DNA from: a virus
IMG/VR virus record: IMGVR_UViG_3300044645_001220
Span: 1 to 59,638 of that record
Strand: one strand, 5' to 3'
DNA length: 59,638 nt
Made by a program: the position numbers and the translations under genes. The notes under the pieces are model-generated. The model ran no database searches. It was not told where the DNA came from and saw only the letters and a program-made list of their open reading frames with translations. This document shows, one piece after another, positions 1,902 to 7,246 of this stretch. Within the stretch, counting starts at the first letter, position 1. The number at the start of each line of letters is the position of its first letter.

Positions 1902-2195
1902 ATGACACCGAAGACCGAAGAAGATTTGATCTACGAAAGCGTTGCCGACTTGGCCTACAAAATGGCCAGAGAGCTTAAAGATCAGGCCATGAGCCTGTAC
2001 GACAGCATGACCGAAGACGAGAGGAAGAAGGTTCTTCCAGAGGAGGCACACGGCAAGAGGTACGCCGCCGCCAGGGTGCTTCTACTCGCAGCAAATATGA
2101 TCGACGAAAAGTCGCCTCTGCATCGCGAGTTCGCAGCAGAGTCGATCCTGAAGAATATCAAGTCGGCGAAACGCATTGTGCGTCAGCGACGATAA
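1902..2195 (+). CDS. Hypothetical small helical protein
   Basis: 97 residues, charged and almost entirely helix-forming, with a basic C-terminus (KSAKRIVRQRR). Not recognised. The start follows GGAGAATGCAGC. The stop codon TAA lies at the 5' edge of the first twister-like element, so ribozyme cleavage would release this cistron with a defined 3' end. Confidence 0.7.
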   Translation: MTPKTEEDLIYESVADLAYKMARELKDQAMSLYDSMTEDERKKVLPEEAHGKRYAAARVLLLAANMIDEKSPLHREFAAESILKNIKSAKRIVRQRR

Positions 2196-2262
2196 ACGCA
2201 GAGTGGGGGCCGATGGCCCCTAATGCGGCCTTCCATCGTGGAAGCCAGTCACAAGCCTGGAT
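2193..2262 (+). ncRNA. Twister-like self-cleaving ribozyme, copy 1
   Basis: The elements of a twister fold appear in type-P5 permuted order: AUAA-like lead; P2 strand CGCA (2197-2200); conserved GAG, then GUG; P1 GGGGCC/GGCCCC (2206-2220) capped by GAU; UAA (2221-2223); P2 strand UGCG (2224-2227); GC; P3 CUUCCA/UGGAAG (2230-2244); P4 CCAG/CUGG with loop UCACAAGC (2245-2260). The T1 pseudoknot would be GUG (2203-2205) with CAC (2250-2252). The expected cut is at U2221-A2222. A closing P5 helix is not obvious, so catalytic activity is unproven. Confidence 0.7.
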
Positions 2263-2273
2263 TCATGGAGAGT
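2261..2273 (+). promoter_or_regulatory. ANGGA leader hairpin over RBS
   Basis: ATTC/GAGT around ATGGA, directly abutting the twister P4 helix. The two structures could compete for the ribosome binding site of the gene at 2280. Confidence 0.45.
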
Positions 2274-2279
2274 ATGGCA

Positions 2280-2903
2280 ATGAGTACAAGAGGAACCTAT
2301 GGCTTTCACTCAGAAGTTCGTCGGCAAAGGCATTTCGTTTACATCCACCACGACAACTACCCAGAAGGAGCGGCAACCTATTTCTACACGGCACTCATGA
2401 GCGACAATCAACATGGAAATTTTGCCACGGTATTTGTTCGTTCCGTCAGTCGCTCGGAACTGACGGAAAGCCATGAAATCCACGCAGATACCGAGTATCG
2501 CTACGACGTAACGGGACATGGCCCGGATGCGATTCTTCTAGCATACGAACGCCAGCACAGCCAGAAGCCTGAGTGGTTTCCGTTCTTCAACGGAAGACTT
2601 TACGAGTTTATTCACCAATACCCTGACAACATCAACGGATTCGAGCCGTTCAAGAAGGTGGCCCTGCGGTACGACCAGACCATTGTGCTTAACGACACAC
2701 TAGCAGGTGTTCGATTGCACGATGCTCTTCGCAAAATGAATTTATGGAAAGTTACATTTCGCAATTCCGCCAACTGGAATCGTGTAACTGAAGAAGCGAA
2801 AGCTCTTATTGCGGCCTTTCCAGAATTGCCAGAGCGAATGGATCAGAATTTGATTCCAATGCTCGCTTACCTGAACGAGCATGAAGAACAAAACGCAGAG
2901 TGA
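2280..2903 (+). CDS. Hypothetical protein
   Basis: 207 residues from the ATG nine bases after GGAG; in-frame ATGs at 2223, 2265 and 2274 are less well placed. Not recognised. The middle is rich in aromatic residues and His (HHDNYPEG, EFIHQY), suggesting a folded globular protein. Its last codons and stop overlap the 5' strand of the second twister-like element. Confidence 0.75.
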   Translation: MSTRGTYGFHSEVRRQRHFVYIHHDNYPEGAATYFYTALMSDNQHGNFATVFVRSVSRSELTESHEIHADTEYRYDVTGHGPDAILLAYERQHSQKPEWFPFFNGRLYEFIHQYPDNINGFEPFKKVALRYDQTIVLNDTLAGVRLHDALRKMNLWKVTFRNSANWNRVTEEAKALIAAFPELPERMDQNLIPMLAYLNEHEEQNAE

Positions 2904-2957
2904 GGGCTTCGGCCCGTAATGCGGCTCCCCACAGTGGGGAACGGTCACAAGCCCGGA
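2891..2957 (+). ncRNA. Twister-like self-cleaving ribozyme, copy 2
   Basis: Same architecture as 2193-2262 with compensatory changes. P2 CGCA (2894-2897)/UGCG (2920-2923) is kept. P1 is GGGC/GCCC with a UUCG loop (2904-2915). P3 is UCCCCA/UGGGGA (2926-2940). P4 is CGG/CCG with the same UCACAAGC loop (2942-2955). GUG (2900-2902) can pair with CAC (2946-2948). The SD of the next gene, GGAGGA, begins within the P4 3' strand, so folding may mask it. Confidence 0.7.
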
Positions 2958-2966
2958 GGAATCACC

Positions 2967-3353
2967 ATGAAGACGATTGAGATTTGCGGGTGCAGCGAAT
3001 GGTTTCGCTTGCACACTGAAGCAGTGCCGAACGGACTCGATAGCGACACAGAGAACGACGCTATCGCTTCCCTGGTGACTGACATCAGCCGAGCGCTCGA
3101 CCATTTGAGGTACGCCAACTACGTCGCAACTCACGGATACCACCAGTGGAACGGCTTGGACGGAGTTGCAGGAGGATACTCTCGCAGGCCGAGAATTGCA
3201 GGCGGCGTAGTTCGTGCAGTCGCTTGCAAACTGACGCCAGAGGAGGTCGATGAAGTAGAGAAAACCGTTTCTCAGTGCATGAGTGACTTCCGTGAAGGAC
3301 TCGATGCCGCCCTGGAAAGTTGCGGGTATTTCGCCGAGCCGGAAGACGAATAA
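2967..3353 (+). CDS. Hypothetical protein
   Basis: 128 residues. Start chosen at the ATG after GGAGGAATCACC; the earlier in-frame ATG at 2919 lies inside the ribozyme. Not recognised. It contains scattered Cys and an acidic C-terminus (AEPEDE). Last early gene before the divergent small gene. Confidence 0.7.
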   Translation: MKTIEICGCSEWFRLHTEAVPNGLDSDTENDAIASLVTDISRALDHLRYANYVATHGYHQWNGLDGVAGGYSRRPRIAGGVVRAVACKLTPEEVDEVEKTVSQCMSDFREGLDAALESCGYFAEPEDE

Positions 3354-3596: not shown

Positions 3597-3770
3597 ATGC
3601 TACGAATCACGGTTCCCGTTGGGGCAAGTTTCATAGTGGGGAAAGCCACTGTTACCCTACTCAAGCGCCACGGAAACCATATCTCGGTGACGGTTGAAGC
3701 GCCGAAGGAAATCCCCATTCGGCGTATCCGCCAAGACGGTACTCCAGTAGAGAGAAAACCAGCCAAGTAG
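3597..3770 (+). CDS. csrA: CsrA/RsmA-like translational regulator
   Basis: 57 residues; bacterial CsrA is about 61. The sequence follows CsrA end to end: MLRITVPVGASFIVG matches the first strands (MLILTRRVGETLMIG), then TVTLLKRHGN, then VEAPKEIPIRR matching the conserved APKEV-V-HR strand, with Arg42/43 near the RNA-contacting Arg44 of E. coli. CsrA dimers bind ANGGA in hairpin loops, usually over an SD, and block translation. The surrounding early genes, including this one, carry such sites. An in-frame ATG at 3396 would only extend into the antisense of the neighbouring micro-gene. The family is confident; the regulon is inference. Confidence 0.82.
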   Translation: MLRITVPVGASFIVGKATVTLLKRHGNHISVTVEAPKEIPIRRIRQDGTPVERKPAK

Positions 3771-3830
3771 CAATGCTTGGCTGGTCCCGATTTTTCAGCG
3801 GCTCGCATCCCGAAGTGGGTGACGGGCAAG
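3771..3830 (+). repeat. 60-bp repeated leader element, copy C
   Basis: Third copy, ahead of the DUF6744/RavA/ViaA-like module. The outer pair is CCCG/CGGG, compensated relative to copies A and B. A 7-bp hairpin, AGCCAAG/CTTGGCT (3762-3783), overlaps its start and the csrA stop codon. Confidence 0.65.
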
Positions 3831-3840
3831 TTTCAAATTT

Positions 3841-3850
3841 TTCATGGAGC
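3841..3850 (+). promoter_or_regulatory. ANGGA leader over RBS
   Basis: TTCATGGAGC precedes the ATG at 3857. The ATGGA core is conserved; pairing of the flanks is poor. Confidence 0.4.
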
Positions 3851-3856
3851 AGAATT

Positions 3857-4681
3857 ATGTCGAACAATCTCGGAGAAGTTGTCGGTTGGTCAGTCGATAC
3901 CAAGGGCACTGTCGTTCACGATGTACGCCAAGCACTTGCCACCGCTGGTTTCGAGCCAGACGCCGCTAAGGATCTCAACGCCAAGCACGCCTGGGGCAGA
4001 GCGATCAAGTCGCTAAAGGAAAGCCGATCGATCGACAAGCTGGTTGACGAGGATGGCAGTATCAGCTTCCAGTTCACACGCAAGGCTGTTCTTGGTGGTC
4101 GATTCGAGTTCGATTACGAGTTCACAGTTCACCTTGACGCAACGACTGGCAACGTCACTTGTCCAGAGCGGCCAGATTTTGCGATCGAGGCACAGAACCT
4201 AGTCAATGCGGCCTACAACGACCGCAACGCCAGTGACATCAGCCGCATCGTCATGCGACTGTTCAAGAAACGTGCCGACCTGTTCCCAGTCATCCCCGAC
4301 AAGGGTGTGGTTTACTTCGTGCCGCATCAGCACAAGGAGTTCACCGACCGCATCGAAACTTTCCTGTCTGCTATGGGTGGCAAGTTGCATCGCTTTATTG
4401 TCCCCAAGGGTGACGAGAAGTCGAATCGCGAGGTCCGAGATTCCGTGATGGCTGGCATGGAGGAAATGATTCAGGAGCTTTCCGCTTCCGTCGATGGCTG
4501 GGACGATACGACCCGCACCGACACAATCAACCGCGCTCTTGACCGCTATCAGAAGATCCGCCTCAAGATGGACGCCTACGCTGAGTTCCTGTCCGACAAG
4601 TCAGGAGAGATCCGCACCCGCCTTGACGACGCCAGGAAGCAGTTCCTAGCCAAGGTCGAAGAGTTCTCTGCCGCCAAGTAG
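3857..4681 (+). CDS. DUF6744-like protein of a MoxR-VWA module
   Basis: 274 residues. Start at the ATG after TTCATGGAGC. It is a mixed alpha/beta protein ending in a long charged helical region (about residues 190-274), likely coiled coil. I link it to the DUF6744 family from memory of its pattern and of its position ahead of phage MoxR and VWA genes; that assignment needs a profile search. It probably acts as substrate adaptor or partner of the ATPase and VWA protein that follow with matching leaders. Confidence 0.6.
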   Translation: MSNNLGEVVGWSVDTKGTVVHDVRQALATAGFEPDAAKDLNAKHAWGRAIKSLKESRSIDKLVDEDGSISFQFTRKAVLGGRFEFDYEFTVHLDATTGNVTCPERPDFAIEAQNLVNAAYNDRNASDISRIVMRLFKKRADLFPVIPDKGVVYFVPHQHKEFTDRIETFLSAMGGKLHRFIVPKGDEKSNREVRDSVMAGMEEMIQELSASVDGWDDTTRTDTINRALDRYQKIRLKMDAYAEFLSDKSGEIRTRLDDARKQFLAKVEEFSAAK

Positions 4682-4716
4682 TTCACGTTCGATTTGTTTC
4701 AAGTGTTTTTCATCAA

Positions 4717-4732
4717 GGTTCATGGAGAATCC
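4717..4732 (+). promoter_or_regulatory. ANGGA leader hairpin over RBS
   Basis: GGTTC pairs with GAATCC around loop ATGGA, 4 nt before the start of the RavA-like gene: the best hairpin of the leader set. Confidence 0.55.
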
Positions 4733-4735
4733 ACT

Positions 4736-5830
4736 ATGTCAGTTCAAGCCAAGTTTGCCGCCTTCCGTACCGCCCTTCATGCTGGCATGGTCCAGCGAGA
4801 AGAGGAGTCCGATATGGTTCTCACGGCCCTTCTTTGCCGGGAACACGCCTTGGTTGTGTCGCCGCCAGGAGAAGGCAAGTCGATGTTGCTCGACGCCATC
4901 ATGGCATGGGCGAAGGCCCCCAAGTTTGATATTCTTCTCAACAAGTTCTCGACTCCAGAAGAAGTCCTCGGCCCCATCAGCGTGACTTCGATGAAGTCTG
5001 ACCAGTATCGTCGCATCACCGACGGTATGCTTCCGCAGGCATCGGTGGCGTTCCTCGACGAAATCTTCAAGGCATCGTCGGCGATCCTCAATACGACTCT
5101 CAAGATCCTCAACGAGCGTAAGTTCCGCAACGGTATCGAGACTCTTGACTGCCCCCTGCTATTGTGTGTCGCCGCCAGCAACGAGTGGCCTTCATCCAGC
5201 GACGGCCTGGGCGCCCTGTTCGATCGGTTCCTGTTCCGCAAGACGGTAGGTACGATCAACGACGAGCGTGGCATCAAGCGATTGCTCTGGGACGACTCGA
5301 TCGGCGTCAAGATTGCCGACACGATCAGCCTGCCGGAAATCAATCTGGCTTGCGATCAAGCAGCGGCAATGCCCTGGACGCCAGAGGCCCAAGACGCCAT
5401 GTACGATTGCGTGGTCGGCGTTCGCCGCGAAGGTGTTCACGTTGGCTCCCGACGTATTCGCAAGTCAGTGCGTGCAGCACAGGCTTTCGCTTTTCTTGAC
5501 GGTTCCGACGCTGTTCAGCCCGAACACTTGGAGATTCTTTCGCACGTTCTCTGGGAAGACCCCAGCGAGCAACCGAAGATCGTCGCCAAGACAATCATGC
5601 AGATTGCCAACCCAGGCAACGCTGTTGTGATGCAGCTTTTAACCGAATGCGAGCAGGCTGTTGACGGCCTCGACATCAAGGATGCAGCCGCCACCACTGT
5701 CTGCATCAAGAAGCTCTCCGAGATTCAGACGCAACTCAAGGGGACCAAGGGGACCAAGGCAACCGCCGCTCTCCAGTACGTCAGCGACAAGATCAAGAAG
5801 ATCAAGCTCGACTTGGTTGCAGCGTTCTAG
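4736..5830 (+). CDS. RavA/MoxR-family AAA+ ATPase
   Basis: 364 residues. The sequence tracks E. coli RavA closely: Walker A SPPGEGKS (42-49), KFSTPEEVLGP (70-80), Walker B VAFLDE (104-109), ILNTTLKILNERKFRNG, and sensor-1 AASNE. RavA forms hexamers that work with the VWA protein ViaA on envelope and respiratory targets; MoxR proteins generally act as chaperones for metal-cofactor or complex assembly. The C-terminal third lacks recognisable RavA LARA features and ends in a Lys-rich helix. It sits 45 bp before the VWA gene, so a functional ATPase-VWA pair is likely. Its role in a phage is unknown; virion maturation, host takeover and anti-defence are all possible. Confidence 0.88.
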   Translation: MSVQAKFAAFRTALHAGMVQREEESDMVLTALLCREHALVVSPPGEGKSMLLDAIMAWAKAPKFDILLNKFSTPEEVLGPISVTSMKSDQYRRITDGMLPQASVAFLDEIFKASSAILNTTLKILNERKFRNGIETLDCPLLLCVAASNEWPSSSDGLGALFDRFLFRKTVGTINDERGIKRLLWDDSIGVKIADTISLPEINLACDQAAAMPWTPEAQDAMYDCVVGVRREGVHVGSRRIRKSVRAAQAFAFLDGSDAVQPEHLEILSHVLWEDPSEQPKIVAKTIMQIANPGNAVVMQLLTECEQAVDGLDIKDAAATTVCIKKLSEIQTQLKGTKGTKATAALQYVSDKIKKIKLDLVAAF

Positions 5831-5875
5831 GTTTCTCTTGTTCTGTTCACGTTCACCAAACTCAGGAGAATCACT

Positions 5876-7246
5876 ATGGATCTTCGCGACTTACTTGCCG
5901 ACAAGTCAGGCATCGACGACGGTACTGTCGGGACCGCACCAGTGCAGGCGACTCCAACCAAGTTCAGCCTGCACCATGACGAATGGTCGCAGCGACGGGG
6001 TTCCGAATTGTTCCAGGGCAGCGAGGAATTGCAGGGTATCTTCTCCGCTGTTGACGGCGACATCGCAGAGACGGCGACGACCGACTTCCGTGGTGGTGCT
6101 TTCGAGTATCGCCCCAAGCAGTCGGACAACTGCACCAATCCGCGACTCGCCAAGTACATGCAAGCCCTCATGGATACCGAGGAGTTCCGCCAGCTTCGCA
6201 CTGTCACAGTCGGCGACGAGAATGCCAGCGAGATTGCGGCCCTTAAGTTTGCGTCAGGGTTCGCAAAAGTCATGGAGGAAGTCACCGAGGAGCAGGCCGC
6301 TACCGATAAGGGCGAGGTCGCTATCGACGTTCAGGCTGTTCGTGCCGCGATGGACGCCAGCCAAGCCATCGATCAGTACGAGGATGTTCGCGACTCCCTT
6401 CCCGGTATGGGTGGCGATCCCGCTGGGGCCAAGCCAATTACGCAGGAAGCAGTAGCCGGTTTGTTCGGCAAGATCCGCAAGAGTTCGATGCTCATGGGAA
6501 TCATGCGACTGGCAGGACGCTACCGCCGCATCGCCCAGTCTGCCCAGCGCCGCAAGGTTCCAGTCGGCATCGACGATGTTGTCGGCGTGCATCAGTCAGG
6601 CGACATCGGAAAGCTACTGCCGTCAGAGCTTGGCCGATTGTCCGACCCGATGTTCGAGGACGATACCATGCGACGTATCGTAGAGAACGCCGCCCAGTGT
6701 CGCGAGCATTGCGGTAACGAGTCAGTAGGCAAGGGTCCGATTGTCGTGATCGTTGACGAGACTGGCAGCATGACCAACAACGATAACATCTACCACGCAA
6801 AAGCGTTCGCCCTCAGTCTGTACTGGGTGGCGAGCAGCCAGAAGCGATGGTGCTGTCTGGTTGGCTACGCCGGGGAGGGTATGAATGTTCTTGTCATCCC
6901 TCCTGGTGCCAACAAGACCGACCAAGTTCTTGAGTGGCTGGAGCATTTCGAGAACGGTGCAACGAATCTTTGCATCCCAGTCGATAAGCTACCCGCCGCA
7001 TGGAGTTCGTTCGGCTGTCCGAAGGGGCAGACCGACATCGTTCAGATCACCGACGCCATCTGCCGCATCCCTGCGGAGACTGTCGCCAGATTCAACACCT
7101 GGAAAAAGCAGGAGCAGGTTCGGTTCCTCACGATCGTAATCGCCGAGGCAGCAGGAGAAGCCGCCAAGATTAGCGACGATTGCTGGGTGTATAATTCAAT
7201 GGCCGCAGGCAGTGACGCCATCAACGACATTCTCAGAAAGGTGTAA
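5876..7246 (+). CDS. ViaA/CoxE-like VWA-domain protein
   Basis: 456 residues. The N-terminal half is helical with acidic stretches. The VWA domain begins near residue 285 with VVIVDETGSM, where Asp294, Thr296 and Ser298 form the MIDAS DxTxS, and Thr363 (NGATNL) is the third metal ligand. Spacing and neighbour match ViaA, the partner of RavA. VWA-MoxR pairs use the MIDAS to grip a client that the ATPase remodels. The start ATG follows AGGAGAATCACT. The next gene starts two bases after the stop, so translation is coupled. Confidence 0.85.
   Translation: MDLRDLLADKSGIDDGTVGTAPVQATPTKFSLHHDEWSQRRGSELFQGSEELQGIFSAVDGDIAETATTDFRGGAFEYRPKQSDNCTNPRLAKYMQALMDTEEFRQLRTVTVGDENASEIAALKFASGFAKVMEEVTEEQAATDKGEVAIDVQAVRAAMDASQAIDQYEDVRDSLPGMGGDPAGAKPITQEAVAGLFGKIRKSSMLMGIMRLAGRYRRIAQSAQRRKVPVGIDDVVGVHQSGDIGKLLPSELGRLSDPMFEDDTMRRIVENAAQCREHCGNESVGKGPIVVIVDETGSMTNNDNIYHAKAFALSLYWVASSQKRWCCLVGYAGEGMNVLVIPPGANKTDQVLEWLEHFENGATNLCIPVDKLPAAWSSFGCPKGQTDIVQITDAICRIPAETVARFNTWKKQEQVRFLTIVIAEAAGEAAKISDDCWVYNSMAAGSDAINDILRKV

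Follow-up and report, generated by a model that had tools for sequence, protein, structure and literature searches.

Two gaps between small phage genes carry type-P5 twister ribozymes

Why do two short and similar elements lie in gaps between small genes of an uncultured phage, and what might they do to the transcript that carries them? We addressed this question in the window, by which we mean the whole 59,638-nucleotide (59.6-kb) stretch of viral DNA analyzed here. The initial annotation had described the elements as two twister-like ribozymes, and this description was borne out by matches above the cut-off of Rfam family RF02684 (Twister-P5), by covariation in hundreds of relatives, and by a general intercistronic placement. 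Both copies match the RF02684 model over its full length (1-58; Rfam 15), with scores above the gathering score of 37.6 bits and E values computed over the whole window (Table 1). None of the computationally testable outcomes that had been named in advance as counting against the assignment, such as the absence of a covariance-model match, occurred. At the gathering threshold, no other Rfam family was found in the window, and a relaxed threshold yielded one weak chance match and no credible further ribozyme in its other gene gaps.

The circular permutation P5, in which P1 is closed by a loop and the ends are open at P5, is present in both copies, with P1 hairpins at 2206-2220 and 2904-2915. 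Each copy runs in the order P2 (CGCA), GA, T1 (GUG), the P1 hairpin, UAA, P2 (UGCG), T2 (GC), P3, and P4, and the P4 loop, UCACAAGC in both, supplies the partners of T1 and T2. The U-A cleavage step and the catalytic guanine are present in the sequence of each copy (UAA at 2221-2223 and 2917-2919; GAG at 2201-2203 and 2898-2900), and cleavage of solved twisters takes place at a U-A site (PMC6154101). The helix order, the UAA, GAG, and UCACAAGC elements, and both pseudoknots are those of RF02684, and the P3 hairpin, which is optional in that family, occurs in both window copies. Nothing separates the copies from the family; for T1, the Rfam consensus is GGG:CCC and the window has GUG:CAC, a common viral type (see below). 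As had been noted, UAA, GAG, GC, and the P4 loop are common to the two copies while P1, P3, and P4 are paired in both with different bases on both strands; the copies share a 47-nt direct repeat that is 74% identical. The extents originally given (2193-2262 and 2891-2957) contain the elements and reach beyond the ribozymes proper. The nearest-neighbor minimum-energy fold of copy 2 is not the ribozyme fold (-27.1 versus -25.4 kcal/mol with the ribozyme helices enforced, pseudoknots uncounted). At the level of sequence, we consider both elements confirmed as type-P5 twister ribozymes, for which self-cleavage is predicted.

The permutation had been anticipated correctly as type P5, and RF02684 is the appropriate family; RF03160, the model that had been suggested for the check, describes the P1 form and gave only register-shifted matches to the window copies (37.7 and 25.7 bits versus a cut-off of 67.2). 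RF03160 was also rejected as a better class among the relatives, since it exceeded its cut-off in 0 of 58 records. In six of these (G001, G006, G038, G048, G063, and G064), it scored a sub-threshold 40 to 57 bits, and these elements may be P1-like. Such matches include G001:C1:427-492, G006:C1:9411-9463, G038:C1:34331-34383, and G048:C1:5749-5800, on contigs that also have type-P5 patterns, so that mixed twister permutations within one phage are possible.

Table 1. Positions of the two ribozymes, their pairing elements, and the neighboring genes in the window
Feature	Position	Strand	Remarks
Upstream ORF	1902-2195	+	97 aa, no family; ends with TAA at 2193-2195, one nt short of copy 1
Twister-P5 copy 1	2197-2260	+	RF02684, 48.7 bits, E = 4e-7
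Copy 1 P2	2197-2200/2224-2227	+	
Copy 1 T1	2203-2205 with 2250-2252	+	GUG with CAC
Copy 1 P1	2206-2211/2215-2220	+	
Copy 1 predicted cut	U2221^A2222	+	Placed by analogy to solved twisters, which cleave at U-A (PMC6154101)
Copy 1 T2	2228-2229 with 2255-2256	+	GC with GC
Copy 1 P3	2230-2234/2240-2244	+	
Copy 1 P4	2245-2248/2257-2260	+	
TTCATGGAG motif	2262-2270	+	Contains SD of gene after copy 1
ORF between ribozymes	2280-2903	+	207 aa, no family; stop UGA 2901-2903 inside copy 2
Twister-P5 copy 2	2894-2956	+	RF02684, 46.6 bits, E = 1.5e-6
Copy 2 P2	2894-2897/2920-2923	+	
Copy 2 T1	2900-2902 with 2946-2948	+	GUG with CAC
Copy 2 P1	2904-2907/2912-2915	+	UUCG loop
Copy 2 predicted cut	U2917^A2918	+	
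Copy 2 T2	2924-2925 with 2951-2952	+	GC with GC
Copy 2 P3	2926-2931/2935-2940	+	
Copy 2 P4	2942-2944/2953-2955	+	Outer A2941-G2956 is a mismatch
SD of gene after copy 2	2955-2959	+	GGAGG; two nt shared with P4
ORF after copy 2	2967-3353	+	128 aa, no family

The pseudoknots covary across viral relatives

Relatives were gathered by type-P5 pattern scans over viral contigs, and the counts given here are among the matches listed. We chose 221 distinct sequences by the presence of at least four P1 pairs and at least two of the three P4 pairs, with T1 not used in the selection. T1 was fully paired in 217 of these. In a reduced test, we left out the GUG:CAC type along with UGA:UCA, the latter because the retrieval pattern fixed both of its T1 sides. 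T1 was still paired in 58 of the 62 remaining relatives, compared with a mean of 13.7 and a maximum of 25 in 5,000 shuffles that retained the relatedness among sequences. Further T1 pairs included GCA:UGC, GGA:UCC, GGG:CCC, GCG:CGC, GUA:UAC, UGG:CCA, GAG:CUC, UAG:CUA, and GUC:GAC, and T2 was represented by GC:GC, GG:CC, GA:UC, and AC:GU. At least ten distinct complementary T1 types are hard to explain in another way, despite the relatedness of the sequences. P1 had a median of 7 pairs and was closed by a tetraloop in 138 of 217 sequences. The GUG:CAC pairing that had been singled out as a departure from GGG:CCC exists in both window copies and is the commonest T1 type among the listed viral sequences (150 of 217); the window T1 is therefore ordinary for viruses.

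Placement from a stop codon to the following SD

Each window copy is on the same strand as the genes and, as the initial annotation had it, fills the stretch that runs from one gene's stop codon to the SD of the gene that follows. The further statement in that annotation that each copy starts at a stop codon is accurate for copy 1, to within one nucleotide; at copy 2, the upstream ORF reads on into the ribozyme, and its stop codon overlaps T1. The overlap of the second SD with P4 was seen as described. SD spacing favors ATG 2280 over 2274 as the likeliest start of the gene behind copy 1.

We next asked how general this arrangement is in 198 viral-contig ribozymes among the matches listed, using ORFs of at least 50 codons. 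The stop was taken as a same-strand stop codon ending between -20 and +12 of the first ribozyme nucleotide, and the start as an ATG with an SD 4 to 50 nt past the last. Both features were found for 127 of the 198, compared with 1.64% of random same-strand positions at the same loci. On the antisense strand, both were found for 0 of 198, and an antisense function was rejected on this ground. The stop codon ended at position -1 or 0 of the ribozyme start in 72 of 169 cases, and a second peak corresponded to the UGA inside GAGUGA (20 of 169). The 36% of viral ribozymes that lack one or both features do so partly through crude ORF calling, and because the placement rules are crude, the true share in this slot is probably higher than the measured one. 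Bacterial genome contigs (Clostridia, Desulfosporosinus, a Planctomycetota bin, and others) were scored separately: 19 of 39 ribozymes there had both features, compared with 0.9% of random positions, and all 39 had at least one. Hundreds of relatives in a stop-to-SD slot suggest the cutting of a message into single-gene pieces without a protein enzyme.

Hammerhead ribozymes occupy the same slot in some contigs

Among the 58 twister-bearing viral records, 4 also contain a Hammerhead_II match over the cut-off, as does L348 (JAHWKS010000297.1), a small contig in a Planctomycetota bin. Type II hammerheads lie in the slot in G012, where the first two hammerhead nucleotides are shared with the stop codon TAG and an AAAGGAG SD and the next ATG follow, and in L348, where the hammerhead sits between two small genes with twisters on either side. 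The hammerheads of G026 and G006 are at a stop codon. Two sisters of the window phage, G019 and G021, have candidate type I hammerheads at the end of a 75-aa ORF (28.5 bits versus a cut-off of 34), followed in G019 by a CTGGAG SD and an ATG. These candidates are on the minus strand at G019:C1:16794-16842 (L366) and G021:C1:132-180 (L367), and the UGA of the CUGAUGA core is a possible stop codon of the ORF. No hammerhead was found in the window. Since hammerheads appear in the twister slot, it is the position that recurs and not the ribozyme class or the gene, and the sharing of a slot by unrelated self-cleaving folds speaks for cutting as the property under selection.

Arrays of ribozymes follow the slot rather than a gene

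A single record can carry several ribozymes, at most seven: whole records contain seven in G019, five in G021, and four in G008, and six, six, and five were found at L119, L147, and L326, respectively. The arrays of G019, G021, L119, L147, and L326 are built of gene-ribozyme-gene units, the last three having a ribozyme for every one or two small genes. Flanking proteins have a median length of approximately 92 aa, and no recurring family was found among 61 downstream and 50 upstream proteins, so that a tie between the ribozyme and one gene family was rejected. Given multiple copies between small genes and no recurring protein family, the element follows the slot and not the gene. In the window, two gene gaps of many carry a ribozyme, so processing there cannot be global.

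A comparison of G019 with G021 bears on a different explanation, in which the ribozymes are chiefly recombination joints or parts of gene cassettes, short conserved repeats that allow homologous gain and loss of small accessory genes, with cleavage secondary. Gene gains and losses between these two phages end at ribozyme edges, G019 has extra gene-plus-ribozyme units relative to G021, and an identical 65-nt ribozyme lies behind unrelated upstream genes, the ribozyme blocks being 98.75 to 100% identical. A role in recombination, alone or in addition to another, is therefore possible, and it would fit flanking genes without a common family. As the chief role we think it improbable: P1, P3, and P4 vary between neighboring copies and the conserved blocks are short, compensatory changes keep pseudoknots that recombination alone does not need, and an unrelated ribozyme class occupies the twister slot. 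Gene insertions and deletions also end between genes in any case, which is where the ribozymes are.

Proposed role as intercistronic processing joints

We think it probable that the two type-P5 twisters serve as joints at which a polycistronic phage transcript is processed between its cistrons. We observe membership in the family, covariation, the recurring placement, several copies per record, and hammerheads in the twister slot, and from these we infer cleavage in the infected cell and its effect. The RNA would be cut between cistrons at its two U-A steps (U2221^A2222 and U2917^A2918). By the chemistry of this ribozyme type, the ends would be a 5'-OH and a cyclic phosphate: the upstream mRNA would keep the closed P1 hairpin at its end, which would bear a 2',3'-cyclic phosphate, and the downstream mRNA would begin with a 5'-OH leader of the form AAUGCGGC-P3-P4-SD. 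With P1 kept upstream and P4 (with P3 if present) kept downstream, there would thus be a hairpin on both new ends. Each cistron or small block of cistrons could in this way become a separate hairpin-ended mRNA without host RNase III, and the hairpins might shield the new ends from decay, with consequences for mRNA stability or translation. A ribosome terminating at a stop codon that adjoins or lies within the ribozyme may delay ribozyme folding and cleavage.

This last step touches on a second alternative, that cleavage is an off or on switch of one neighboring gene, glmS-like or gated by translation, and does not generally separate cistrons. A stop codon in or touching the catalytic core, as at UGA 2901-2903 in copy 2 and in 20 of 169 relatives, could couple translation to cleavage, as could the SD of copy 2 that overlaps P4. 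Yet a switch of this kind is unlikely, considering that no gene family is common to the upstream or downstream neighbors, several copies per genome lie between unrelated genes, and no extra conserved ligand-binding domain is found beside the core. Like such gene-specific regulation, neutral relics are a less likely reading: inactive copies or copies with neutral activity, of which the degenerate third copy in L348 (UAACGCGGC) might be an example, are very improbable in view of the intact core and pairing positions in both window copies, the T1 and T2 covariation across relatives, and ribozymes that are nearly identical in the sister phages G019 and G021 while neighboring genes differ.

Beyond processing joints in the window, we raise tentatively, and with more doubt than conviction, a broader scheme in which twister-P5 and hammerheads II and I are interchangeable joints between small phage genes, forming a stop-ribozyme-SD module where the stop codon lies in or against the catalytic core, translation termination gates cleavage, and the joint doubles as a breakpoint for gene shuffling. 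If so, the module would turn every inserted gene into a separate mRNA with hairpin ends, across a wide range of uncultured phages. For dividing polycistronic messages, the relatives would also be a source of hundreds of natural parts, and their T1 pseudoknot has at least ten pairing types in nature.

Relation to known systems

Processing of phage mRNA by ribozymes is less notable than the initial annotation had suggested. Perreault et al. (2011) described prophage hammerheads in clusters around single genes or short gene blocks, with no gene common to all; they proposed a role for them in the processing of long transcripts of the phage and observed cleavage of tandem copies in vitro and in E. 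coli (PMC3088659). Multiplicity around genes, the lack of a constant gene, and the processing idea are the same here; the ribozyme class is different, and we measured an exact stop-to-SD slot and found both classes in the same contigs. Twisters and hammerheads are also described as enriched close to Mu-like phage genes and to one another, and why bacterial twisters are associated with phages is given there as unknown (cited in PMC10085705). Phage association and co-occurring ribozymes are likewise features of our set; as a difference, the clade of the window has a clamp loader and a portal protein found in other uncultured contigs. The exact stop-to-SD slot, arrays with a ribozyme for every one or two genes, and hammerheads in that slot provide a testable answer to the phage-twister association, namely that phage operons would be cut into single-gene messages without protein.

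In T7 early mRNA, intercistronic RNase III cuts produce single mRNAs with terminal hairpins. The intercistronic cuts and terminal hairpins proposed for the window ribozymes are the same, whereas in T7 a host enzyme cuts and the window RNA would cut itself, leaving 5'-OH and 2',3'-cyclic phosphate ends. The ribozyme class, its phage association, and the processing idea are thus already known. We add figures for how often twisters fill the stop-to-SD slot, together with the interchange of classes; our search covered the open literature, and an earlier description of the placement may exist.

Relatives of the phage and other features of the window

Both copies recur in a near-identical record (L040), where neither their spacing nor their scores differ. 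The window portal protein is 52% identical to those of G019 and G021 and 32 to 33% identical to those of G030 and G040 (L120), and Twister-P5 is present in all four. A clamp-loader homologue is common to the window, G030, G040, and L348. In L348, which has two twisters over the cut-off, a degenerate third, and one hammerhead, the array at approximately 3780-4880 on the minus strand reads twister, hammerhead II, twister, degenerate twister. It sits between small genes, downstream of the clamp-loader homologue, and its T1 is GGG:CCC. On the basis of this one binned contig, a planctomycete host for the clade of the window is possible. Neither a DNA search of the region at distant sensitivity nor a search with the window portal protein matched a named phage, and so no named relative was found among the phages searched.

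The csrA gene that had been noted nearby corresponds to a CsrA-like ORF at 3597-3770 (+), whose PF02599 score of 25.6 bits is just below the Pfam cut-off of 27. TTCATGGAG, found at 1885, 2262, 3581, 3841, and 4719 (+), holds the SD in front of several genes over the first 5 kb; it occurs 6 times in the window versus 0.73 expected and includes ANGGA, which forms the core of CsrA binding sites. A 59-nt element has three copies (458-516, 568-626, and 3768-3826, +) that are 69 to 86% identical to the middle one and lie in the gaps that precede the clamp loader and the gene at 3857. It has no Rfam family, was found outside the window only in the near-identical contig L040, and was rejected as a second structured RNA, as it folds no better than shuffles. 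At 4736-7246 (+), a MoxR-type AAA ATPase (PF20030, 167.8 bits) adjoins a weak VWA match, with a DUF6744 protein upstream. The contig end carries a GC-rich repeat (29-176) of three exact copies 44 nt apart, followed by C/G tracts.
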